The position numbers were made by a program, and so were the translations under genes. The notes beneath the pieces are model-generated. The model had not been told where the DNA came from and ran no database searches. It worked only from the letters and a program-made list of their open reading frames with translations. A DNA stretch of 55,202 nt, from positions 1 through 55,202 of the IMG/VR virus record IMGVR_UViG_3300041809_002179. One strand, 5' to 3'. This stretch comes from a virus. Every line of letters starts with the position of its first letter. Position 1 is the first letter of the stretch. Below, in pieces: positions 7,806 through 55,202 of this stretch.

Positions 7806-8072
7806 ATGACATCTGCTGCAATCGAGAAAAGCAACCGCAGCCGCGCCAACGATGAACTCATCGCCATCAACCGTGAATACCATCATGGCCTTCCTCTTTC
7901 CGAGATAGACGCTATCCTCACCAAACACGGATTCACAGGGATGGAAGCCGCAATCTATTGCGGGCGTGAGGGCCGCGTGCACGAGCAGGTTGGACCAAAG
8001 ACTTGGATCTTGTTAACCTGGCACAAAATGGAAAACACGGGGCGCTACGAAATCGTCGCGTATCTAGGCTAA
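7806..8072 (+). CDS. Hypothetical protein
   Basis: 88 residues with a good GGAGAGAAG ribosome site. An AGTATAAAC element at 7785 may be its promoter. Sequence such as LPLSEIDAILTKHGFTGMEAA suggests a helical hairpin. The stop codon overlaps the helicase start (TAATG), so it probably belongs to the helicase transcript. Confidence 0.65.
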   Translation: MTSAAIEKSNRSRANDELIAINREYHHGLPLSEIDAILTKHGFTGMEAAIYCGREGRVHEQVGPKTWILLTWHKMENTGRYEIVAYLG

Positions 8073-10816
8073 TGGATCTCCTTGATCCCAACCCGTCGCC
8101 AGAAGTGTTTAAGAACCTTCTGACCAATTTCTCGCCGAACATTCGCGACCACTTTCCGTTCCCAACGATCCGGCCTTCACAAGAGTTAGGTCTACAGGCC
8201 ATCGAGCGAGCCTACGCGAGCGACAAGAAATTTATCATACTGGAATTACCCACTGGTGTAGGAAAATGTCTAGCAAAAGGAACCCTGGTTTTGATGTTTG
8301 ACGGTTCTACTCGAGAAATAGAAAAAGTCAAAGTGGGGGAACTGGTGATGGGACCGGACTCTCGTCCGCGCCGGGTACTTTCTCTTTCTTCTGGCGAATC
8401 TGAAATGTTCATTGTTCGGCCCGACAAGGGAGAGGCATACACCGTTAACGAAAACCATATTTTAAGTTTACGTCATTCCGGGCGGGTAGTTCGAGAGCAC
8501 CAGAAGTATCTGGACAAAGAAAATGTTTGTGAAATTTCTCTCCAAGAGTATGTAGGAAAAAGCAAATGGTTCAAACACTGTTTCAAGGGGTTCAAAACTG
8601 GGGTAGAATTTGTCAACCGACCAGTTCCGCTGTCCCCGTATTTCATCGGCTTGTGGTTGGGTGACGGGAACTCTCGATGGCCAACTGTCACAACCTCTGA
8701 CAAAGAAATCACAACCTTTTTAGAAGGGTTTGCGAAATCCTACGATCTTTTCCTCACACAAGACGACGTAGCCTCAGTCGGACCAACAGGAATTATCACC
8801 TATTCTTGGAATATTTCCAGCAAAAATCATGGGGGAAGTCAGAGGCAAAAACAGAGACAGAACCCTGTTCTTAACCGAATGCGAAGACTAAATATCCTAG
8901 GAAACAAGCACATTCCCTCAAGCTACCTCGTAAACTCCAGGCGGAAACGGCTTGAACTTTTAGCTGGTCTTTTGGATTCGGATGGTGAATTGGTACACAA
9001 CACTTATGGTATTTGGAGCAAGTGGCAACAGTTGGCAAACCAAATTTGCTTCTTAGCTCGCTCTCTAGGATTTGCTTCTTTTGTCAAACCTGGAATAGCC
9101 AAACTCGACGGAAAGGAATTCCCTGGATTTCGAGTCACGATTTACGGAAAAGGACTCGAGCAAATCCCAGTTCTATTGAAACGCAAAAAAGCAACCACAA
9201 GAACCCAAATCAAAAATGCTCTGCACACAGGAATCACCATAGTCCCTGCTGGGCGGGGAGAATATTTTGGATTTAGCCTAGATGTAGATGGTAGGTTCCT
9301 GCTTGGAGATTTCACTGTAACTCACAACAGTGGTATCGCGGTTGCCGCCGCGTCCTGGGCTAAGACCCTCCCCACCACAGGGGAATTCCAACAAGGTGCG
9401 TACATCCTTTCCCCACAGAAGACTCTTACCGCGCAGTACATGAAGGACTTCGCCAACCTGGGCCTTCTAGAACTCAAGGGTAAAGCGAACTATTGGTGCC
9501 ATCAGTTTGAAACCGATTGTGACACCGCTTCACTTTTACACGGTGGACGGGACGACGAAGACGCCGGGGATAACCGGGGCAATCCGGACCTTTGTTGCGA
9601 ATACAAGCCTGCAAAGAAAGCATTCATTGCCGGCTTGATGGGTGTGACCAACTTCGCATACTATCTGAACGAAACGCAGTATTCCGGACAGCTCAAGAAC
9701 CGACAATTGTTGATCCTGGACGAAGGACACAACACCGAAGGCCAGATCCTGGGATTCACCGACACCGTGATCAATCCCAAGCGCAGCGAAGAGCACGGTG
9801 CGGGAAAACTTCCGTTTATCAAACCGGGCGAGAACGCCAAGACGCGAGAGTGGTTGGTCAAAACCTTCGTACCGGCGACGCAGGAATACATGCGCAATCT
9901 GGAAGAGCTGATGAATGAAGCGAAGTATGCCCAGAACCGCGAGGACCAGATCAAATACGGGCGCAAACTGGACAGTACCGACAAATTCCTTTGCCGGCTG
10001 AACCGCTTTATCAATAGCGAAGACCCCGGCAACTGGCTTTGTTGGTCGGACAAAGACAGCAACGTTCTGACCATCAAACCGTTGACTGCTACCTTGTACG
10101 CAGATGAAGTTCTGTTTCGCAAGGCGAAGAAGATTTTAATCATGTCCGCGACGATCCTGGACTTCAACACATTTATGAGGAACTTGGGGATCAAGCGTGA
10201 AGACGCTGAGATCTTGGCCGTACCTAGTGAATTCCCGGTTGAGAACCGCCCGATCTTCTACCGTCCGGTTGGCTTGATGTCCCATAAGTACATCGACCAG
10301 ACATTACCCAAGATGGGCGCGATGGTGGAGAAGATCCTCGACAAATATGCAAAGCACAAGGGAATCACCCAGACACACAGCTATCGCATCACCAAGTACC
10401 TTACAGATTTCTTACGGGGCAAGCCTGCCTCGAAGCGCATCCTCACGCACACTGGCGAAATCCAGGGATCGCGTGACCTGGCTGTACAGAAGCACCTTTC
10501 AAGTCCGGACCCTACCGTCCTCTTCTCTCCAAGTATGACCGAGGGTCTGGACTTGAAAGAAGATCTCGCCCGCTTTGGCATCTCCTGCAAAGTACCATAT
10601 CCATACATGGATCCCTACGTCAAAGCGCGCATGCAGCGCGACCCTGCGTGGTACGAATGGTTGACCGCGCTGGCGATAGTCCAAGGCACCGGGCGTATCG
10701 TACGCTCCCGAACTGACAAAGGGCATTTCTATATCCTGGATGGCAGCTTTGAGTACTTTCTCACGAAGAACCAAAAGGTACTGCCAAAATGGTGGACAGA
10801 CAGTATCATTTGGTAG
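8072..10816 (+). CDS. XPD/DinG-like superfamily 2 helicase, intein-containing precursor
   Basis: 914-residue precursor from the ATG at 8072. The Walker A motif ELPTGVGK (58-65) is interrupted after its Lys by an intein and continues with SGIAVA. Removing residues 66-419 leaves a 560-residue helicase. Four cysteines (YWCHQ, TDCD and DLCC) follow shortly, as in the Fe-S domain of XPD, DinG and Rad3. DEGH (about 550-553) is the DEAH box and QGTGRIVRS (about 871) is motif VI. It likely unwinds 5'-tailed DNA in replication or repair. The protein must splice to restore ATP binding. Confidence 0.88.
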   Translation: MDLLDPNPSPEVFKNLLTNFSPNIRDHFPFPTIRPSQELGLQAIERAYASDKKFIILELPTGVGKCLAKGTLVLMFDGSTREIEKVKVGELVMGPDSRPRRVLSLSSGESEMFIVRPDKGEAYTVNENHILSLRHSGRVVREHQKYLDKENVCEISLQEYVGKSKWFKHCFKGFKTGVEFVNRPVPLSPYFIGLWLGDGNSRWPTVTTSDKEITTFLEGFAKSYDLFLTQDDVASVGPTGIITYSWNISSKNHGGSQRQKQRQNPVLNRMRRLNILGNKHIPSSYLVNSRRKRLELLAGLLDSDGELVHNTYGIWSKWQQLANQICFLARSLGFASFVKPGIAKLDGKEFPGFRVTIYGKGLEQIPVLLKRKKATTRTQIKNALHTGITIVPAGRGEYFGFSLDVDGRFLLGDFTVTHNSGIAVAAASWAKTLPTTGEFQQGAYILSPQKTLTAQYMKDFANLGLLELKGKANYWCHQFETDCDTASLLHGGRDDEDAGDNRGNPDLCCEYKPAKKAFIAGLMGVTNFAYYLNETQYSGQLKNRQLLILDEGHNTEGQILGFTDTVINPKRSEEHGAGKLPFIKPGENAKTREWLVKTFVPATQEYMRNLEELMNEAKYAQNREDQIKYGRKLDSTDKFLCRLNRFINSEDPGNWLCWSDKDSNVLTIKPLTATLYADEVLFRKAKKILIMSATILDFNTFMRNLGIKREDAEILAVPSEFPVENRPIFYRPVGLMSHKYIDQTLPKMGAMVEKILDKYAKHKGITQTHSYRITKYLTDFLRGKPASKRILTHTGEIQGSRDLAVQKHLSSPDPTVLFSPSMTEGLDLKEDLARFGISCKVPYPYMDPYVKARMQRDPAWYEWLTALAIVQGTGRIVRSRTDKGHFYILDGSFEYFLTKNQKVLPKWWTDSIIW
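8267..9328 (+). mobile_element. Intein with LAGLIDADG homing endonuclease
   Basis: 354 residues inserted exactly in Walker A. The N-terminal block CLAKGTLVLMFDG begins with the splicing Cys, and the C-terminal block ends GDFTVTHN before extein Ser (+1). Endonuclease motifs FIGLWLGDGN and LAGLLDSDGE are the paired dodecapeptides, each with its acidic residue. All splicing residues appear intact, so it should be active both in splicing and homing. ATP-binding loops are a favoured intein site because they are conserved. Confidence 0.93.
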
Positions 10817-10817
10817 G

Positions 10818-10934
10818 ATGCTAACTCTCAAAGACAAGAAGTGGCTGTTCAGCCTTGCTTTCTACATTGTCATCGCCTTGAAAGGCGATGGAACTTTCTT
10901 TGGTAGCTTGAAAGAACGAATGTTGGGAGAATAG
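10818..10934 (+). CDS. Small membrane peptide
   Basis: 38 residues starting one base after the helicase stop. It begins MLTLKDKKW, has one hydrophobic segment (LFSLAFYIVIAL) and ends with a charged GSLKERMLGE. The upstream GGTAGG is only a modest ribosome site. Its position between tightly packed genes supports it. Confidence 0.45.
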   Translation: MLTLKDKKWLFSLAFYIVIALKGDGTFFGSLKERMLGE

Positions 10935-10936
10935 AG

Positions 10937-11257
10937 ATGAAATACCGCTGCCCCGCCTGTGGCGTAATTCTTGAACGCGACAGCAAGAAGATGTGGGTCA
11001 AATCGTATTGCGATGTGGCGGGGAGAACAGCCCGCCTTCAACGAGTGATGACAATCGAAATCACTCCCATTCCAAAACGGAAGCGGGTGCGCTGCTGTGA
11101 TAATGGATTCTTCGGCACTAAACACAAATGCCAAAAGCAATCCGGTCCGACCTTCGAGATCGCTTCAATGCCCATGATTTCAAAGAGCGAGATTATCAAT
11201 CGTCGATTTGAGCGCCCTACACTGAAGCACAAACGGCGCTGCCGGCCTGGTCAATGA
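10937..11257 (+). CDS. Zinc-ribbon hypothetical protein
   Basis: 106 basic residues. The N-terminus MKYRCPACGVI is a zinc-ribbon knuckle, paired with cysteines at SYCDVAG, VRCCDNG or HKCQKQ. The C-terminus is Arg/Lys-rich (KHKRRCRPGQ), so nucleic-acid binding is plausible. A GGGAGAATAGAG ribosome site precedes it, and its stop overlaps the next start. Confidence 0.6.
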   Translation: MKYRCPACGVILERDSKKMWVKSYCDVAGRTARLQRVMTIEITPIPKRKRVRCCDNGFFGTKHKCQKQSGPTFEIASMPMISKSEIINRRFERPTLKHKRRCRPGQ

Positions 11258-47355: not shown

Positions 47356-48483
47356 ATGGAATTCACTGCCCAATTTCTTCAGAGAGCGGATCAAGAAAAA
47401 CGGTCATTCCGGGGATTGCCAATTGTCATAACAGACCCCAGAGGAACGATTCGCGAAGGAGTTGACCCAATGTCAGGCCGGGCTTGGTCTCGCGAAATGA
47501 AGTGCGACTACGGGTATATCCCAGGCACTTCCGCTGCCGGCGATGAAGAGAGTGTGGATGTGTACGTCGGTCCTGATGAAAATTCAGAATTTGTCTATGT
47601 CGTGGAACAGGTGGGGCCGACCGGCGAGTTCGATGAGTATAAATTGATGCTGGGTTTTCCGAATCTAGAAGCTGCCGAGGAAATGTTTGAACAACAGGGG
47701 CCAGAAGAATGGGATGGCCTGGGAGACATTTCTGAAATTCCATTGGAGCATCTATTTGACGCCGTTGAAGAGCACCGGAAGACTGCTGCTGATCCAGATC
47801 TCATAGAGAAGTTCGTGGTACAATATGAGCGCCAACGTGGTGTATACGGCAAGGCCGCCGATGTGGTACGGAAAGAGATTGCCGATGCTTGTGAGAAGAA
47901 AGGTATACGGTGTGCAGTCGTCTCTCGTGCCAAAGAAGTGGATAGTCTCCGTAAGAAACTGGAGAAGCGAAATGCTCTCCGCCCATACGTAGACTTCAAG
48001 GACATTCGAACAGATATCAAAGATTTAGCCGGAGTCCGAGTCGCTCTTTACTTTCCTATTGATCGGGACGGGGTGCGAGACATCATCAAAAAATTATACA
48101 AAATGGCGCGGCCTGTGAAACATTTCCCTGAAGATCGTGGTCCAGAAGATGGTGAAGACTATGAGGCAGACCATTATGCCATCAAGTACGCGGGTTTGAT
48201 TGTAGAGATCCAAGTGGCTTCAGCTTTGATGCTCGCCTGGTCCGAGGTCGCCCACGATTTAGTTTACAAGCCAAGAATGGGCGAAGTGACTCCGGCTGAG
48301 TATCAATTATTGGACGAGCTTAAAGACATTGTGAAGGCGGGTGAGCACACTGTCACCCAGTTGCAAGATTCAGTTATGAGTCGAATCGCTAGCATTCCTT
48401 CGGAAGCGCAGCGCGTGGCCGCTCGGTTGTACGCCACAACCATACTCACTCGTCGCAACGAAATCTTGGCAGGTGGCGTTTAG
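47356..48483 (+). CDS. Pyrophosphatase-like domain fused to RelA/SpoT alarmone-synthetase domain
   Basis: 375 residues from the ATG at 47356; a TTG at 47293 is possible. Residues 20-135 (DPRGTIREGVDPMSGRAWS, DYGYIPGTSAAGDEESVDVY, VEQVGPTGEFDEYKLMLGF) match the inorganic-pyrophosphatase-like domain of phage polyvalent proteins. KTAA at 142-145 forms the linker. Residues 190-330 match RelA_SpoT synthetase: SRAKEVDSLRKKLEKR, DIKDLAGVRVALYFP, ADHYAIKY and VEIQVASALMLAWSEVAHDL. No HD hydrolase or regulatory domain is present, as in small alarmone synthetases. Could make (p)ppGpp or pyrophosphorylate tRNA. Confidence 0.82.
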   Translation: MEFTAQFLQRADQEKRSFRGLPIVITDPRGTIREGVDPMSGRAWSREMKCDYGYIPGTSAAGDEESVDVYVGPDENSEFVYVVEQVGPTGEFDEYKLMLGFPNLEAAEEMFEQQGPEEWDGLGDISEIPLEHLFDAVEEHRKTAADPDLIEKFVVQYERQRGVYGKAADVVRKEIADACEKKGIRCAVVSRAKEVDSLRKKLEKRNALRPYVDFKDIRTDIKDLAGVRVALYFPIDRDGVRDIIKKLYKMARPVKHFPEDRGPEDGEDYEADHYAIKYAGLIVEIQVASALMLAWSEVAHDLVYKPRMGEVTPAEYQLLDELKDIVKAGEHTVTQLQDSVMSRIASIPSEAQRVAARLYATTILTRRNEILAGGV

Positions 48484-48499
48484 AACAGAGGACACCTAA

Positions 48500-49045
48500 A
48501 TGGCGCTGGCTCCCTTCACTAAGATCGTCATCGATAAACGCGAAGAGAGAAAATTTCGCCGTCGTGCTCTCGCGCACTATCCCTATGAGCATATCGAAGC
48601 CTTATGGGGTGAAGTGCGTGGGGACACTGTCTATGTTGTTGCTTTTATGGCTATGGAGCATAGAAGTTCTCTTAAATCTCTCCAGTATGAAGACGCAGAA
48701 TTAGATGAGCATGAAGATGACGCAAAGGATGCACACCTTGAATTTTTAGGTACCATTCATAGTCATCCTGATTGTAACGATAATCGTTTTGGAGATCGGG
48801 ATTTGGCAACTATGCAAGAATCCCAGGAATCAGTTATGGGAATTTTAGCTATTGAAGCCGAAGTGAAGGGCAAAAAGCTCAAGAAGCGCCGGTGCCGGGT
48901 TGCATACTGGCCCTCTACAAGACCGTTGGAAGTTATACGTAAGGAATGGGATGCATCCACTTCTAAAAAGATTAAGCGACCGCGTCGCGCTGGCGTCAAA
49001 CTCAATTACGCCACGGCATCCAGCCGCAAACGCAAGCGCCGATAA
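48500..49045 (+). CDS. JAB/MPN (JAMM) metallopeptidase-like protein
   Basis: 181 residues. EALWGEVRGDTVYVVAF starts the MPN fold and FLGTIHSHPDC with Asp 101 (FGDRD) gives the zinc motif HxHP-x(10)-D; the usual Ser of the motif is Gly here. SVMGILAIEAE follows. The tail is very basic (KRPRRAGVK, SSRKRKRR). JAB peptidases cleave isopeptide or peptide bonds, for example of ubiquitin-like tags. Overlaps the next gene by 95 bases. Confidence 0.75.
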   Translation: MALAPFTKIVIDKREERKFRRRALAHYPYEHIEALWGEVRGDTVYVVAFMAMEHRSSLKSLQYEDAELDEHEDDAKDAHLEFLGTIHSHPDCNDNRFGDRDLATMQESQESVMGILAIEAEVKGKKLKKRRCRVAYWPSTRPLEVIRKEWDASTSKKIKRPRRAGVKLNYATASSRKRKRR

Positions 49046-52000
49046 AATCGCGAAACTTCCCCTCGTCAAGACGGCTCCTTTCATAACGGCGCTGAACAGA
49101 GTCAAGGATCAAATCATCGGCAAGAATCTGGGCAGCTTAGAAATCGCCCAAATCCTTAACAGTGCGCTGTATTCTTACCACATAACATTTGAACCAGGAA
49201 TGGGAAGTGAGTCAGGGCATCCTGACCAAGCTAGGTTTCATATCATCCGGGGTTGGATGGACGACAATTCCAACATTGGCATCGAATATGAAAATGATTT
49301 CTATGAACAATTTGACGACATGAGTGACAACGAGTGGAATGACTTCGTTAAAACTGTGGTCGCGATCATAGCTCACGAGGCCACCCATCGTAATCAGATG
49401 GAGAGCATTAAAGAGAAGTACCAATACGAAACCGGTGCGAATTACCACTACAAAATTGATCAAGCGATACGTAGTTTCGGAGGGGTGCCCACCGACATTT
49501 TCAAATACATGTCCAATCCCCACGAGATCGCTGCGTTTGCTCGCGAGGCCGTTGAAGAGTTGCGTGCCGTGGGGTATTCCGATGAACGCATCTTAGAGAC
49601 TCTTAGAAATCGGGAAGAGCTCAAACACATCGTTGGTGATGCTCACACATTCTGGCGGTATTGGGATTTCTTCGGACCGGGAGATCCAGTCTTCACCAGA
49701 CTTCTGCAACAGATGTACAAAGTGTTGACTAACAAGACGGCTGCTTTGAAAGCTGAAGGTCTGTTACGCCTGCACGACATGATTAAGAACAATCCTAGTC
49801 GCCTTCGCACGCGCGAAACCCATATTGCTGAAGCAGTTTTCGAGCGTCAACAGCCCGCGCTTTATGAGCTCTTGAAGCAGGTCCAAAAGACTACGCGAAA
49901 AGATGAACGCATTCAAGAAATACTAGGGGATACCGTTCTGCCCGCTCTCCAAAAGGCCGACGATCTATTTGCAAAATACAAAGATGGCGATGAATTTCTA
50001 ATCGATCAAGCGTTGACTAAACAGGAACATGCATTGATGACGCTGCACAACATCATAAGGATTTTGAATGAAGTAGAGCAAGACAACAAGACGGCAGCGG
50101 ATGTTCACAACGAAGACAACGGAGGCTTTGAACCCTGGATAGGTGTAGATCTGGACGGTACGTTGGCTGAGGAACAGAAACCCTTCCAGGAATATGGCAT
50201 CGGTGCTCCTGTCCCGGCGATGGTGAAAAAGGTGCAGGACGCAATTGCTTTAGGAGAATTGGTGAAGGTCTTCACCGCCCGCCTAGCAGTACCGGAAACT
50301 CATGATCGGCTCCAGGTTGTAATTCGGGAATGGACTAAGAAGTTTGTTGGTGTGCCTTTGGATTCTACATGCGTCAAGGATCCGGGCATGAAAGAGATCT
50401 GGGACGACCGGGCGCGGCAAGTGGTGAAGGATACCGGCGAGTTTAAGTGCGCTTCTATCAAATTGTATCGGGGGATGTCGCAAGATGAATATCAAAATCT
50501 GTTAAAGACCCACGTCCTTCAGCCCAACCCGCATAATCCTCACAATAATTGCACCCAGGATTTGGAGACTGCGAAATTCTACACTAAGCAGCACGATGAT
50601 CCCGGGGTTGTGGTGGAGTTTTCCGCACCGGTTGATGCTGTGATTGAAGATGAGATCTACAAAGGCGATTACAGGCTGATAAAACCCGTTCCGTTGGAAG
50701 AGATAAAGACCGCTGGTCAAGGTAGAGACATAACACGTCGCCAACACTCGGATCATTCAGAGAACGACATCACCATGACGGATCCGGAACATCCGTTTAC
50801 TGATGAGATGGAGAAAGTCAAAGAGGCCAAAACCGGTCTGCATCCCAATCACAATGTGCAAATAACTCTACCGCCCGCCGCCGTCGCTGAAGTTGCCGGG
50901 GCTTCTAAAAATATTCCCGACGCTGAGCTAGGCATAGATGGACGCGAAGATGATCCGCATATCACTGTTAAATTCGGGGTTAGGGATGACATAGACACTC
51001 TAGCAAATGTAGTTGAGTCTGTTATGCCTTTTAGCGTTACACTTGGGAAATTAAAAGTGTTTCACGCTGAAGGAGAGCAAGTGGCTGTTGTGGCAGAAGC
51101 TCAATCGCCGGAGTTGCCGAAGTTACACAAACTTGTAGACAAGGCTATTGGACATCGGCCTGATGATTGGCCCTACAGCGCCCATGTAACATTGGCTTAT
51201 GTCAAAAAAGAATTCAGCAAGAAGTATGAAGGGTCTGCTTTAGTTGAAGGGCTATCTTTCACCGCTAATTCTGTAACGTTGTCCCGAAAAGGTGGCGAAC
51301 GTACCACTATTCCTCTGGGAAAGAAGACGGCGGCTACAGGCTTATCCGCTATCGTAAAGACTGCATCCATAACTCACAAATGCGCTCGGATGGGTACGTT
51401 GTCGGATTACCAGGCAGCCCTTTCGGATCATTACACTCTAGACCATGCCAAGGGCGGGGTCTACGACTACAGCACAACAACTGCTCTAGGCCCATCGATT
51501 GTCCGACTCATAGCACAACCCGACGGTACGGTAAAGTGGATTCGCCAGTCGGAAGGGAATGTTAAAACTCGTGGCTCCGATTTAGATAAATTCCTGGCAA
51601 CCATGGAGATGAGTGCGGGCTACTTGGAACACCCTCAGACTTACATAAAGGTCAAAGGTAAAACTTTGAGTGTAGATGTGGGGGTCAAAGAACTTGTGTG
51701 GTTCTTAGGTAATCTTCCTGGAGTTAAGACTACAGCATCATGCCAGGGTGAACCGGGTCATTGGAAGGGCGGATACGTAGCGATTCAAGTTGGTGACAAA
51801 ACGGCTGCCAATCTGCAGCACTACCTCTACAGCGATGAAGTGCCGCGAGGAGTGATAAACAGCCAATCCCGTTATTCGGGAGGCATTGCGATTTATTGGA
51901 AGACCGAGAATTACCCGGCTGTTCTGAAAGCCATCAAAGCCTTCTTCCAAAAAGGAGCTACGGCATCCCACAAGACTCCACCGTTCGACGACACACAGTA

Positions 52001-53195
52001 CAACGACCAGGAAGCGACAGAGGGCTCAAATGCCTATGATGCCGTTCACGAACGGGTCAAAGGTGTCTATGAAGACTTCCCGTTGGAAGAACTGTCGCCG
52101 GGGATCTTCAAAGATGCGGCTCTTCATATGGAAATGGATGACCAAGGAGAGAATGACAGCCGTCGTATGTTCCGCTTCTATTCGGGGCCGGGGCAAGACG
52201 TTGGACCGGGAGATGAACTTGGATGGATTGAGGTTCGAATCGAGGGCACTACAGCTTACGTAGACGATGTCTTTTTGAAAAAGACGATGCGCGGGCACGG
52301 TGAAGGCCGGGGTATGTACAGACAGGTCTTTGGTGCACTCAGGCAGCAGGGCATCACGGACGTTCAGACAATGCGTTCCGGTCCCAGCCCAGATGCCCGT
52401 CGTGCTTGGGAGAGTTTGAAGCGGGAATTTCCGATTGAGGAGTTCGCGCCGAATCAATTCCGAGTTCATCTTGCTGCCGCCAGCGATATAAAGGACATCG
52501 ATCGGGAACTTCAACGGGTAGCTTTCGGCACCGTGGTGGCCCTTCCTCTTAAGAATGGCTTGATCCGGGTGATGGACAACCATTACGATGTAATCAAGCC
52601 ACACGATTGCGATCCGGTTGAATTATATATGTGGCTCTTAGAGCAGCCGGATAACGTTGATCTCCAGACATTTAATACCGGGTGGCAGCAGTTCATTGGA
52701 GGAAAGACCGCTGCGACCTATCAAAGCAAGCCCGTGCTGCTGAATCTCGGAGATGGTTACTGGCTGTCCTATGCCAAACATCCGGTGGAAGCAGAATCAA
52801 ACACTTGGTCGGTGCTGTCTGATGAAGACAAACTTTTCAACATGGGAGAAATCACTGTAGATTTTTACAAAGATCTGCCGTTCCCATCCATCAACAGCAT
52901 CCGCCTAAACGACAAGCACCAGGGCAAGGGTCTAGGCCGTCATATCATCCAGGCGTTGGCAAAATTTTACGGCGGCTTGACCTCTGATCCACAACGTAAC
53001 ACGAATGATAATGCCATACGTATGTGGCGTGGCATTCCTGGAGTAGAAGAGGTTCCTTCACCACATAGTAACTTGACTCCCAAAGGCACTTTCTTCGTGC
53101 TGAAATTCGCCAAGGAATACAATCGTTTTCGATATGCTACAGATGCTTCAGGGGATTGGTTGGAGTTAGAGGATGTATCCGATAACGAAGTGTAA
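48951..53195 (+). CDS. Giant polyvalent protein: zincin, HAD, ART-like, 2H phosphoesterase, two GNAT domains
   Basis: 1414 residues from the ATG at 48951 (AAGGA upstream). In order: zincin-like HEATH at 142-146; HAD-type GVDLDGTL near 398-405; LYRGMSQDEY with PVDAVIEDEIY (505-560) resembling ADP-ribosyltransferases; 2H phosphoesterase motifs HITVKF (670) and HVTLAY (745); an unrecognised region with TTASCQGEPGHWKG; GNAT with FLKKTMRGHGEGRG (about 1110); GNAT with LNDKHQGKGLGRH (about 1320). KTA(A/G/P/S) linkers occur at 40, 262, 380, 586, 792, 803, 950 and 1252, mostly between domains. Likely delivered early to act on host factors. Confidence 0.8.
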   Translation: MHPLLKRLSDRVALASNSITPRHPAANASADKIAKLPLVKTAPFITALNRVKDQIIGKNLGSLEIAQILNSALYSYHITFEPGMGSESGHPDQARFHIIRGWMDDNSNIGIEYENDFYEQFDDMSDNEWNDFVKTVVAIIAHEATHRNQMESIKEKYQYETGANYHYKIDQAIRSFGGVPTDIFKYMSNPHEIAAFAREAVEELRAVGYSDERILETLRNREELKHIVGDAHTFWRYWDFFGPGDPVFTRLLQQMYKVLTNKTAALKAEGLLRLHDMIKNNPSRLRTRETHIAEAVFERQQPALYELLKQVQKTTRKDERIQEILGDTVLPALQKADDLFAKYKDGDEFLIDQALTKQEHALMTLHNIIRILNEVEQDNKTAADVHNEDNGGFEPWIGVDLDGTLAEEQKPFQEYGIGAPVPAMVKKVQDAIALGELVKVFTARLAVPETHDRLQVVIREWTKKFVGVPLDSTCVKDPGMKEIWDDRARQVVKDTGEFKCASIKLYRGMSQDEYQNLLKTHVLQPNPHNPHNNCTQDLETAKFYTKQHDDPGVVVEFSAPVDAVIEDEIYKGDYRLIKPVPLEEIKTAGQGRDITRRQHSDHSENDITMTDPEHPFTDEMEKVKEAKTGLHPNHNVQITLPPAAVAEVAGASKNIPDAELGIDGREDDPHITVKFGVRDDIDTLANVVESVMPFSVTLGKLKVFHAEGEQVAVVAEAQSPELPKLHKLVDKAIGHRPDDWPYSAHVTLAYVKKEFSKKYEGSALVEGLSFTANSVTLSRKGGERTTIPLGKKTAATGLSAIVKTASITHKCARMGTLSDYQAALSDHYTLDHAKGGVYDYSTTTALGPSIVRLIAQPDGTVKWIRQSEGNVKTRGSDLDKFLATMEMSAGYLEHPQTYIKVKGKTLSVDVGVKELVWFLGNLPGVKTTASCQGEPGHWKGGYVAIQVGDKTAANLQHYLYSDEVPRGVINSQSRYSGGIAIYWKTENYPAVLKAIKAFFQKGATASHKTPPFDDTQYNDQEATEGSNAYDAVHERVKGVYEDFPLEELSPGIFKDAALHMEMDDQGENDSRRMFRFYSGPGQDVGPGDELGWIEVRIEGTTAYVDDVFLKKTMRGHGEGRGMYRQVFGALRQQGITDVQTMRSGPSPDARRAWESLKREFPIEEFAPNQFRVHLAAASDIKDIDRELQRVAFGTVVALPLKNGLIRVMDNHYDVIKPHDCDPVELYMWLLEQPDNVDLQTFNTGWQQFIGGKTAATYQSKPVLLNLGDGYWLSYAKHPVEAESNTWSVLSDEDKLFNMGEITVDFYKDLPFPSINSIRLNDKHQGKGLGRHIIQALAKFYGGLTSDPQRNTNDNAIRMWRGIPGVEEVPSPHSNLTPKGTFFVLKFAKEYNRFRYATDASGDWLELEDVSDNEV

Positions 53196-53220
53196 CAAGT
53201 AGACTTTCTGTAACTAATAC

Positions 53221-54012
53221 ATGATGTTACAGAACCTTTACGTTTTGTTTGACCCTATAGAACCGGAACATTTTCGCTACGCGGGTTATACGGTTCACAG
53301 AGTTAAACAGCGTTTGAGCGAGCATTTAGAAGAAGCCCGCAGCGGAAGGTGGAACCACACCCACAAAAATCGTTGGGTGAACAAGGTTTTGAGACAAGGT
53401 CGAACGCCCAGTGTCCGTTGGGTGGGTGCTTCTTCCGATCCTGATCAAGCTGAACGTGCTTTGATTAAAAGATTGAAGGAGGAAGGTCATCGACTTACAA
53501 ATGGTACTGAGGGTGGAAAGGGTTGTTTAGGTGCCCGGTGGAAATTAAAACCGGATCAAGTCAAGGCTTTACGAAATAGAAAGTTGAAGCCCGCTACTCC
53601 AACGACTAGACGGAAACGGCGCGATGTTGCGATGGGCAATCAACATTGGAAAGGGAAAGACGGGACTAAACTTGGATTTAATGCACCAGAAGTTAGGGCA
53701 AAACGAAAAGGGAGGAAGCTGTCGGCTGCTCATATTGTTAGTTTGAAAATTGCCTGGGGTAGACGCAAGGCGGCTATCCCGCCAAAACCTCCTAAGGAAC
53801 CAAAACTTCCGGGTATGACAGGGAAACACCACAGCGAAGAGACAAAGCGGCTATGGAGCAAGAGGAGGAAGGGCGTTAAACGTTCGGCAGTTGCCACTCA
53901 ACGCGCTGCTGAGAGTAACCGAGGGAGGACGAGAACGCTGGAGCAACGCATTAGGATTAGTGAAGGTCGTAAGAAGGCTTGGGACAGGGAGAAAAATGTC
54001 GTTCAACAATAA
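53221..54012 (+). CDS. GIY-YIG homing endonuclease with NUMOD3 motifs
   Basis: 263 residues. LYVLFDPIEPEHFRYAGYT with HRVKQRLSEHLEEA is the GIY-YIG nuclease core. The long basic C-terminus contains GMTGKHHSEETKRLWSKRR and similar segments of NUMOD3 type that bind target DNA. It sits between two polyvalent genes and is more basic than either, fitting a free-standing hom element. Overlaps the next gene by 17 bases. Confidence 0.8.
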   Translation: MMLQNLYVLFDPIEPEHFRYAGYTVHRVKQRLSEHLEEARSGRWNHTHKNRWVNKVLRQGRTPSVRWVGASSDPDQAERALIKRLKEEGHRLTNGTEGGKGCLGARWKLKPDQVKALRNRKLKPATPTTRRKRRDVAMGNQHWKGKDGTKLGFNAPEVRAKRKGRKLSAAHIVSLKIAWGRRKAAIPPKPPKEPKLPGMTGKHHSEETKRLWSKRRKGVKRSAVATQRAAESNRGRTRTLEQRIRISEGRKKAWDREKNVVQQ

Positions 54013-55202
54013 TGCGAAGGGAAAGCTGATCGGGCAGGTGTATTTGTTGCATTTTAATATCTCTCCGGGTACAGTGATTCCAAGTTCTCGTCCAGATGCC
54101 TTAACAAAGAAATTCCATGCTCGTCACTATTGTGGTTGGGCAGAAGATTCTGAACGACGCATTCAAGAACATCGTGAGGGTACCGGTGCGCGCCTGATGC
54201 AAGTTCTAAAGCAACGAGGAATCACCTTCCAGGTTGCCCGCATCTGGGATAACGTGGCACGCGGGTTCGAACGCCAACTGAAGAACCAAGGTGGGCTGTC
54301 GCGCCACTGTCCGCTCTGCCGAGCTGAAGGCATCGATCGTGACACGGCTTACAAACAGAAGAAAGAAGTCCAGGTCGCGCCGGAAACTCCGACGGCGGGG
54401 CCGGATTTTGTAGAGGTGGAAAAGACAGCCGGTAGGCCCGTACAAATTCGTCTGGCTGCTGATACTGAAGATTATTCCGCGTATCTGCGTGGATTGATAG
54501 AACGTGATTTGTTTGGTGTAGGCCCGAATAAACCTCTGGGATACATGCCTTTGAGCACGGTCTATCAAGCCGGGGTTAACGCGGATCAGCTTGAAGAACA
54601 ACTTAAATCGAGAGGGCTGAAAGTCTTTCAAGTTCACCAGCATGGCATGGTGCATTCAGGAGCAATTTGGGCCTACGATGAGGCTGCTTTGAATGCTTTG
54701 CTACAGAATAACTTTGAGACTCTTCGGAAGTACAAGTGGCCTGAGCAACCTGCTGCGTTTGTCAAGAATGTTGTCAGAAAATCTGTTGGCAAAGCAGACA
54801 GTCCTGATTTGTATCGGCTCATTGGCCTAGCGTTCTCTGACGCGAGATTTAAGACAGCAGGATGGCGGGAAGCTGTCGGTGAACGTTGGATCTACCATCC
54901 GAACTATGGCGCGTTCTGGATGAGTGGAAAAACAGGCCCACACATACTTCTGATAGAAAAAGCCATGGGGAAAGATATGGCTTTCGGCAAGAAATTTGAC
55001 GAAGTGGATAGAGGCTATGCGGAGATTGACCCAGTCGAAAAGACAGTAACCCTGGAAAGTTTTGACCTTCGCAACAAAGAATTTATTGAGAATGATGTAG
55101 TGGATTTGTACAAGAAGAGATTCCCAAAATACACCATCCTGATTCCGCAAGAATCTGATCCGATGGCGATGGAAAAGGCGATGAATGCCGCTAAGACGGG
55201 GG
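53996..55202 (+). CDS. GIY-YIG-like polyvalent protein, runs off the window
   Basis: At least 402 residues from the ATG at 53996 (GGGAG upstream), open at the right edge. Residues 10-115 (GQVYLLHFNISPG, RHYCGWAEDSERRIQEH, ARLMQVLKQRGITFQ, RHCPLCRAEG) form a GIY-YIG-like domain found in phage polyvalent proteins. EKTAGRP at about 143 and FKTAGWR at about 286 repeat the KTA linker of its neighbours. The middle is helical and winged-helix-like (LSTVYQAGVNADQLEEQLK). The remainder is not recognised. Confidence 0.7.
   Translation, partial: MSFNNNAKGKLIGQVYLLHFNISPGTVIPSSRPDALTKKFHARHYCGWAEDSERRIQEHREGTGARLMQVLKQRGITFQVARIWDNVARGFERQLKNQGGLSRHCPLCRAEGIDRDTAYKQKKEVQVAPETPTAGPDFVEVEKTAGRPVQIRLAADTEDYSAYLRGLIERDLFGVGPNKPLGYMPLSTVYQAGVNADQLEEQLKSRGLKVFQVHQHGMVHSGAIWAYDEAALNALLQNNFETLRKYKWPEQPAAFVKNVVRKSVGKADSPDLYRLIGLAFSDARFKTAGWREAVGERWIYHPNYGAFWMSGKTGPHILLIEKAMGKDMAFGKKFDEVDRGYAEIDPVEKTVTLESFDLRNKEFIENDVVDLYKKRFPKYTILIPQESDPMAMEKAMNAAKTG

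Follow-up and report, generated by a model that had tools for sequence, protein, structure and literature searches.

The sequence studied here is the IMG/VR virus record IMGVR_UViG_3300041809_002179, a 55-kb fragment (55,202 nucleotides, hereafter the window), whose 3' end encodes three neighbouring polyvalent proteins in which the tripeptide KTA recurs. Judged by its gene matches, the window is a piece of the genome of a giant soil phage of the Tunturi_5 lineage. The genes 5' of the polyvalent set include phage replication genes and a DNA transfer gene similar to A1 of T5. The features of the locus, all on the + strand, are as follows.

47356-48483, +, 375-aa polyvalent protein: InPase, KTA linker, RelA/SpoT alarmone synthetase (Pfam)
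47779-47787, +, KTA site EEHR-KTA-ADPD between InPase and RelA, where the InPase homology block shared with relative G2 (introduced below) stops
48500-49045, +, JAB-family metallopeptidase gene, a conserved neighbour of polyvalent genes (Pfam Prok-JAB, 4e-9)
48951-53195, +, 1414-aa polyvalent protein, with an ATG start overlapping the JAB gene; a longer reading starts with TTG at 48900
49068-49076, +, KTA site PLV-KTA-PFI
49734-49742, +, KTA site LTN-KTA-ALK
50088-50096, +, KTA site QDN-KTA-ADV, directly 5' of a HAD-like module common with Tunturi_5 gp273
50706-50714, +, KTA site EEI-KTA-GQG, ahead of the 2H module
51324-51332, +, KTA site LGK-KTA-ATG, at the end of the 2H module
51357-51365, +, KTA site AIV-KTA-SIT
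51798-51806, +, KTA site VGD-KTA-ANL, probably within a folded module (local pLDDT about 80-87) and maybe uncut or a chance match
52704-52712, +, KTA site IGG-KTA-ATY, which closes the 75-aa module; the GNAT block common with G2 starts here
53221-54012, +, GIY-YIG/NUMOD3-like endonuclease open reading frame (ORF), a probable homing endonuclease (weak matches under curated cut-offs)
53996-55202, +, last polyvalent protein, cut off by the end of the window: a GIY-YIG-like module followed by two unknown modules, with KTA at both joints
54422-54430, +, KTA site EVE-KTA-GRP, at the end of a module common with G2
54851-54859, +, KTA site ARF-KTA-GWR

The 375-aa protein matches the Pfam families InPase (3e-34, residues 14-134) and RelA_SpoT (1e-12, residues 190-306). 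The 1414-aa protein begins with a zincin-like module with an HExxH motif (HEATH, residue 159), a helical module, a HAD-like plus ART-like module and a 2H phosphoesterase, of which the HAD-like module and the ART-like stretch were assigned from alignment and sequence only; a small beta-alpha module, a GNAT domain with a conserved 75-aa module and another GNAT domain follow. The Pfam matches to InPase, RelA_SpoT, 2H and GNAT, together with the HExxH motif, show the several unrelated conflict-type enzymatic domains per polypeptide by which polyvalent proteins are recognised. A previous study of polyvalent proteins from phages and conjugative elements describes the same repertoire (InPase, RelA/SpoT, 2H, GNAT, ART and zincin) in giant phage proteins with many domains, whose delivery together with the DNA is predicted (PMC5512222). 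The InPase proteins (window 47356-47390; L028 6409; L029 5058) also have a common N-terminal leader, M-x-x-TA-x-FL-x-[RT]-A, which is a candidate capsid-targeting or leader peptide.

The positions given in the preliminary description proved correct: KTA lies at residue 142 in the 375-aa protein and at residues 143 and 286 in the last one, and the 1414-aa protein has eight sites. Its statement that the tripeptide is more frequent than expected was borne out, since 11 copies were counted against 0.66 expected by composition (P = 1.5e-10), and KTA ranks first of 8000 tripeptides by over-representation in the three proteins. Not one of 20,000 shuffles gave eight KTA in the large protein, whose 1431-aa reading by itself has 8 against 0.46 expected (P = 3e-8); the lone KTA of the 375-aa protein is not significant by itself (P = 0.08). 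An equal frequency in other genes was not seen, as the remaining window genes pooled have one KTA against 3.0 expected. The residue following KTA in the 11 sites is Ala (six), Gly (three), Ser (one) or Pro (one). The codons of the sites differ synonymously (AAGACTGCT, AAGACGGCA, AAAACGGCT, AAGACAGCC and others), and the 30 bases on each side are 26% identical between sites versus 25% at random, so selection acts on the peptide and not on the DNA. A DNA-level origin of the repeats, as a recombination site or a duplicated element, was rejected on the same grounds.

Several sites had been described as falling exactly between domains. None of the 18 KTA sites counted in the window and two relatives falls within a Pfam domain envelope, and such envelopes take up 20% of the residues (P = 0.02). 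An AlphaFold2 model of 832 aa is mostly of low confidence (46.9) and covers five KTA sites, four of them in low-confidence segments. The fifth, at 51798, is in a well-modelled segment (predicted local distance difference test, pLDDT, about 80-87), where a helix begins behind a strand. An AlphaFold2 model of InPase-RelA from three sequences was uninformative (pLDDT 37), and the low quality of the models is due to shallow alignments. The Pfam envelopes are compatible with an inter-domain placement, and the site at 51798, one of the eight in the 1414-aa protein, is probably inside a fold.

Searches with the 375-aa protein found no near relatives. Using the neighbouring A1-like DNA transfer gene and the 1414-aa protein, we found two IMG/VR contigs with homologous polyproteins, abbreviated G1 (265 kb, L031-L044) and G2 (132 kb, L045-L051), and a search with the 75-aa module returned just the same two. 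Each contig has matches to 26 of the 65 genes in the window, and G1 is similar to the isolate Tunturi_5 (309 kb) in the portal (48%), the tail sheath (45%) and the head-region protein gp329 (72%); therefore, all four belong to one giant-phage lineage. The 1822-aa polyprotein of G1 contains seven KTA against 0.53 expected (P = 1.5e-6), and KTA again ranks first among its tripeptides.

Comparison of these phages showed that modules change while KTA remains at the joints, in agreement with the earlier suggestion of a linker used in domain shuffling. The joint between InPase and RelA is a bare KTA in the window, contains an extra module in G1, and holds ART plus GNAT modules in G2. The 2H module ends with LGK-KTA-ATG in the window, FGYK-KTA-GEM in G2 and FGSH-KQA-AFH in G1, and the 75-aa module ends with KTA in the window, LSH-KTA-ASS in G1 and GSKSASLS-KTA-F in G2. 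The GNAT block comes after the 75-aa module in the window and after the 2H module in G2. A 1164-aa polyprotein of G2 contains, at an internal position, the GIY-YIG-like module with which the last window gene begins (61-69% identical); there, the position homologous to the site at 54422 reads VAKAASK. In G1, G2 and Tunturi_5, the modules of the window are permuted, inserted, or split into separate genes. In all pairwise polyprotein alignments among the window, G1, G2 and Tunturi_5, with a null obtained by rotating the sites, 23 of 49 internal homology-block ends lie within 15 residues of KTA (null 7.45, P <= 2e-4); when K-x-A with a small residue after it (K-x-A-small) is counted at the same distance, the number is 32 of 49 (null 14.9). 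The working unit is broader than KTA(A/G), with Lys at P3, Ala at P1 and, in the window, Thr preferred between them. In the 834-aa protein of G2 (L050 1119-3620), the ART-like module between InPase and RelA is bordered by the near-identical repeat EQQKEDQKYGS / EQQKEDQKHGS, perhaps left behind when this module was inserted.

The same motif was found in the head proteins of the lineage. In Tunturi_5, gp331 is annotated as head maturation protease, gp334 as capsid protein, gp7 as portal and gp328 as ejection protein; PHROGs back the protease ('head maturation protease', 4e-13), the capsid protein (major head protein) and, through the G1 homologue, the portal. K-x-A-small is present in all four. 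The protease has IPL-KTA-N and GKTAAT at its N-terminal end and KVAS at its C-terminal end, the capsid protein has KSAAG...KLAAS at its N-terminal end, and gp328 and the scaffold-like gp332 contain many copies. The N-terminal site of the portal is kept (TKTAGLF, DKTAALF, NKTAGAF) at 39-48% protein identity. A scan found 15 loci with proteases homologous to gp331, and the capsid proteins at most of them start ...LLKTAGGRQKLAASLG or a close variant. Across ten proteases that are 24-62% identical to that of Tunturi_5, K6 and the C-terminal K264 are invariant and A8 is nearly invariant. His105 and Ser161 (SMG) are also invariant in the 10 homologues and are likely the catalytic pair, so that gp331 appears to have the conserved catalytic His and Ser of the T4 gp21/phiKZ gp175 type. 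Pfam and NCBIfam gave no name for gp331, and comparison of its profile with solved structures returned nothing meaningful. An InPase search of the protease-bearing contigs gave a match in one only.

At the protease loci, K-x-A-small was counted 23 times against 4.4 expected by composition in the protease, 10 against 3.1 in the capsid protein, 64 against 27 in the scaffold-like protein and 17 against 6.4 in the adjacent polyprotein, compared with 72 against 63 in all other genes. KTA alone gave 30 against 5.4 in the head classes and 10 against 7.7 elsewhere, and the reversed and R-x-A controls were near or below chance in the protease. When whole proteomes were ranked by K-x-A-small, the polyprotein came first in G1 (14 against 3.4) with the portal and the ejection protein in the top four, and the ejection protein came first in Tunturi_5 (14 against 3.4) with the scaffold-like gp332 third. 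The polyvalent proteins consequently bear the motif found at the protease termini and in the capsid, portal and scaffold of their lineage. The presence of K-x-A in the prohead protease, portal, scaffold and ejection proteins favours the processing signal that had been proposed from the window, in the form of cleavage during head maturation.

Two of the contigs concerned share a metagenome with a relative of the window. The 83.8-kb contig L062, which carries the protease and capsid genes, and G2 (L029, 132-kb contig) both come from metagenome 3300035696, so that L062 may represent the head part that is missing from G2; L063 and G1 likewise come from one metagenome, 3300050821.

We consider it likely that K-x-A-small is a prohead-protease motif and that the polyvalent proteins are head cargo which is cut into separate injected effectors. 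The head-maturation protease of the lineage would recognise K-x-A, including KTA, followed by a small residue, and, on the model of other prohead proteases with a P3-x-P1 motif, would cut after Ala. Together with scaffold and ejection proteins, the three polyvalent proteins would be packaged in the prohead and cut at K-x-A during head maturation into separate small enzymes, including a pyrophosphatase, an alarmone synthetase, a zincin, HAD-like and ART-like proteins, a 2H phosphoesterase, acetyltransferases and others, which would then be ejected with the DNA. Full cutting at KTA would give about nine pieces of the 1414-aa protein (one of 11 residues), two of InPase-RelA and at least three of the last protein. 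Because the cut site would be the sole junction required, new modules could be added, their order could change, and they could be distributed over different genes. The steps that we infer from these patterns are packaging in the prohead, cleavage at a particular scissile bond, and ejection. On balance, we also lean towards the wider view of a phage polyprotein system of at least three genes and at least 13 injected effectors, whose modules are delimited by the K-x-A site of the capsid-maturation protease, serving as a portable junction for exchange.

Several observations weigh against this interpretation. Scans made here recognised no protease, capsid or portal gene in the window; since the window lacks recognised head genes, its own protease is deduced from the relatives. 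Neither proteomic nor biochemical evidence of cleavage was found, and mass spectrometry is not mentioned in the main text of the Tunturi_5 paper. The site at 51798 probably lies within a fold in the AlphaFold2 model. The G2 polyproteins contain just four KTA, with no significant overall enrichment, and their junctions are often KAAS, KSA, KTS or GS instead. The reversed control A-x-K is also raised in the ejection and scaffold proteins of Tunturi_5, whose excess of K-x-A is partly compositional because these proteins are rich in Lys and Ala. The compared sequences share ancestry, so that the counts are not independent. Finally, the capsid protein of a distant relative, Bacillus phage G, has no N-terminal site, although this phage has homologues of both the capsid protein and the small protease; the termini of the latter, gp19, carry K-I-A, K-T-A, K-V-A-S and K-I-A-S, and K-Q-A and K-M-A occur in the N-terminal region of the phage G portal.

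Previous studies showed that the prohead proteases T4 gp21, phiKZ gp175 and SPN3US gp245 likewise recognise a short P3-x-P1 motif with several sites per substrate, that their substrates include capsid, portal and ejection proteins, and that the protease cleaves itself (PMC5694885, PMC10052503). Unlike the K-x-A sites between enzymatic modules described here, these proteases have Glu in front of the cut (the SPN3US motif is A-x-E), and for the most part they trim terminal propeptides. As its own conserved terminal motifs are K-x-A, gp331 was not assigned to the Glu-specific type. The antirestriction proteins of phage P1 (DarA, DarB and DdrB) are likewise large, polyvalent, located in the head and delivered with DNA; DarA is believed to undergo proteolytic processing, and the prohead protease of P1 is predicted to be Pro (PMC9024508). 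DarB is identified as a head protein of 250 kDa that carries a capsid-localisation signal, and the passages of that source consulted here describe no repeated inter-domain cleavage motif, which differs from the present proteins. The 'mega protein' of Agrobacterium phage Atu_ph07 was considered as a control and was not used, as the match is a 307-aa gene.

Other explanations are less well supported. In the first, K-x-A would be recognised and left uncut, as a docking or capsid-targeting motif or a flexible linker that aids prohead loading, and the domains would act as one chain. This would fit the presence of K-x-A in head proteins and cargo alike, the lack of cleavage data, and the packaging of some giant polyvalent proteins whole, such as the N4 virion RNA polymerase (PMC5512222). 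We regard it as unlikely, however: the protease carries K-x-A near its N terminus as well as its C terminus, and the proteases of phiKZ and SPN3US have been documented to cleave themselves C-terminally (PMC5694885). A targeting signal would be single and near the N terminus, whereas K-x-A recurs every few modules, and modules occur as separate genes split at KTA points.

In the second explanation, the cutter acting on KTA would be a protease within or beside the polyproteins, either the HExxH zincin-like module or the adjacent JAB metallopeptidase. Iyer et al. (2017) already drew the polyprotein analogy and proposed cutting by embedded zincin or assemblin-like domains, including zincin autoproteolysis (PMC5512222); HExxH modules occur in the window, G2 and Tunturi_5 gp321, and JAB neighbours in the window, G1 and Tunturi_5. 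Autoprocessing by a zincin would call for HExxH in every KTA-bearing polyprotein set, but the G1 polyproteins contain seven KTA and no such motif, and G2 keeps KTA junctions with no JAB detectable. Both candidates are weakened as the KTA protease by these absences. Moreover, the motif is common to capsid-maturation substrates and the prohead protease itself, and the passages of PMC5512222 consulted here describe neither a common delimiter motif nor a match to such a motif in head proteins, whereas here the site repeats between modules and matches a separate head protease. An embedded or adjacent cutter therefore seems quite improbable. That the KTA repeats arose secondarily from recent duplication, from recombination sites or from linker composition, as the Lys/Ala-rich linkers of Tunturi_5 and the direct repeat EQQKEDQK[Y/H]GS in one G2 linker might suggest, is very hard to reconcile with the varied codons, the random identity of the flanks, the excess of KTA over composition in the window and G1, and the controls in the protease.

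The JAB gene has homologues at the same locus in G1 (113379-113858, 46%) and Tunturi_5 (gp271, L002 6038-6523, 37%, annotated as 'minor tail protein'), and none was found in G2. Beside an Acb1-like 2H domain, the JAB protein could be a deconjugase directed against ubiquitin-like or cyclic-oligonucleotide-based antiphage signalling system (CBASS) conjugation. The endonuclease ORF (53221-54012) separates the second and third polyvalent genes, and the gene after it likewise opens with a GIY-YIG-like module. A conserved 22-residue segment of the capsid protein (PTFEIASMPMIS..I..RRFE) recurs, nearly unchanged, at the ends of two small proteins that are otherwise unrelated, one in the window (10907-11254, match 11147-11212) and one in Tunturi_5 (gp172, L054 22430-22723), and looks there like a capsid mimic or docking peptide; the copy in the window suggests that its phage has a capsid protein of the Tunturi_5 type. 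We also identified a 948-aa ORF (window 7970-10813), the N-terminal half of which resembles terminase large subunit families and the C-terminal half a DNA helicase family.

Motifs of prohead proteases are already known, as is the comparison of polyvalent proteins with polyproteins. Neither a K-x-A specificity of a phage protease nor a delimiter common to a head protease and shuffled effector modules was found in the open-access papers searched, and both the KTA delimiter and the K-x-A specificity appear to be new. For the passage of the very large multidomain polyvalent proteins of giant phages through a narrow tail, autoproteolysis has been proposed. If the cutting of the polyvalent proteins at K-x-A is true, the head protease would be both a capsid-maturation enzyme and an effector-release enzyme. 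With a readable cut-site motif, the mature effectors, their boundaries and their number would be predictable from sequence, and capsid cargo in metagenomic giant phages would be recognisable as genes enriched in the motif found at the ends of the phage's own protease.

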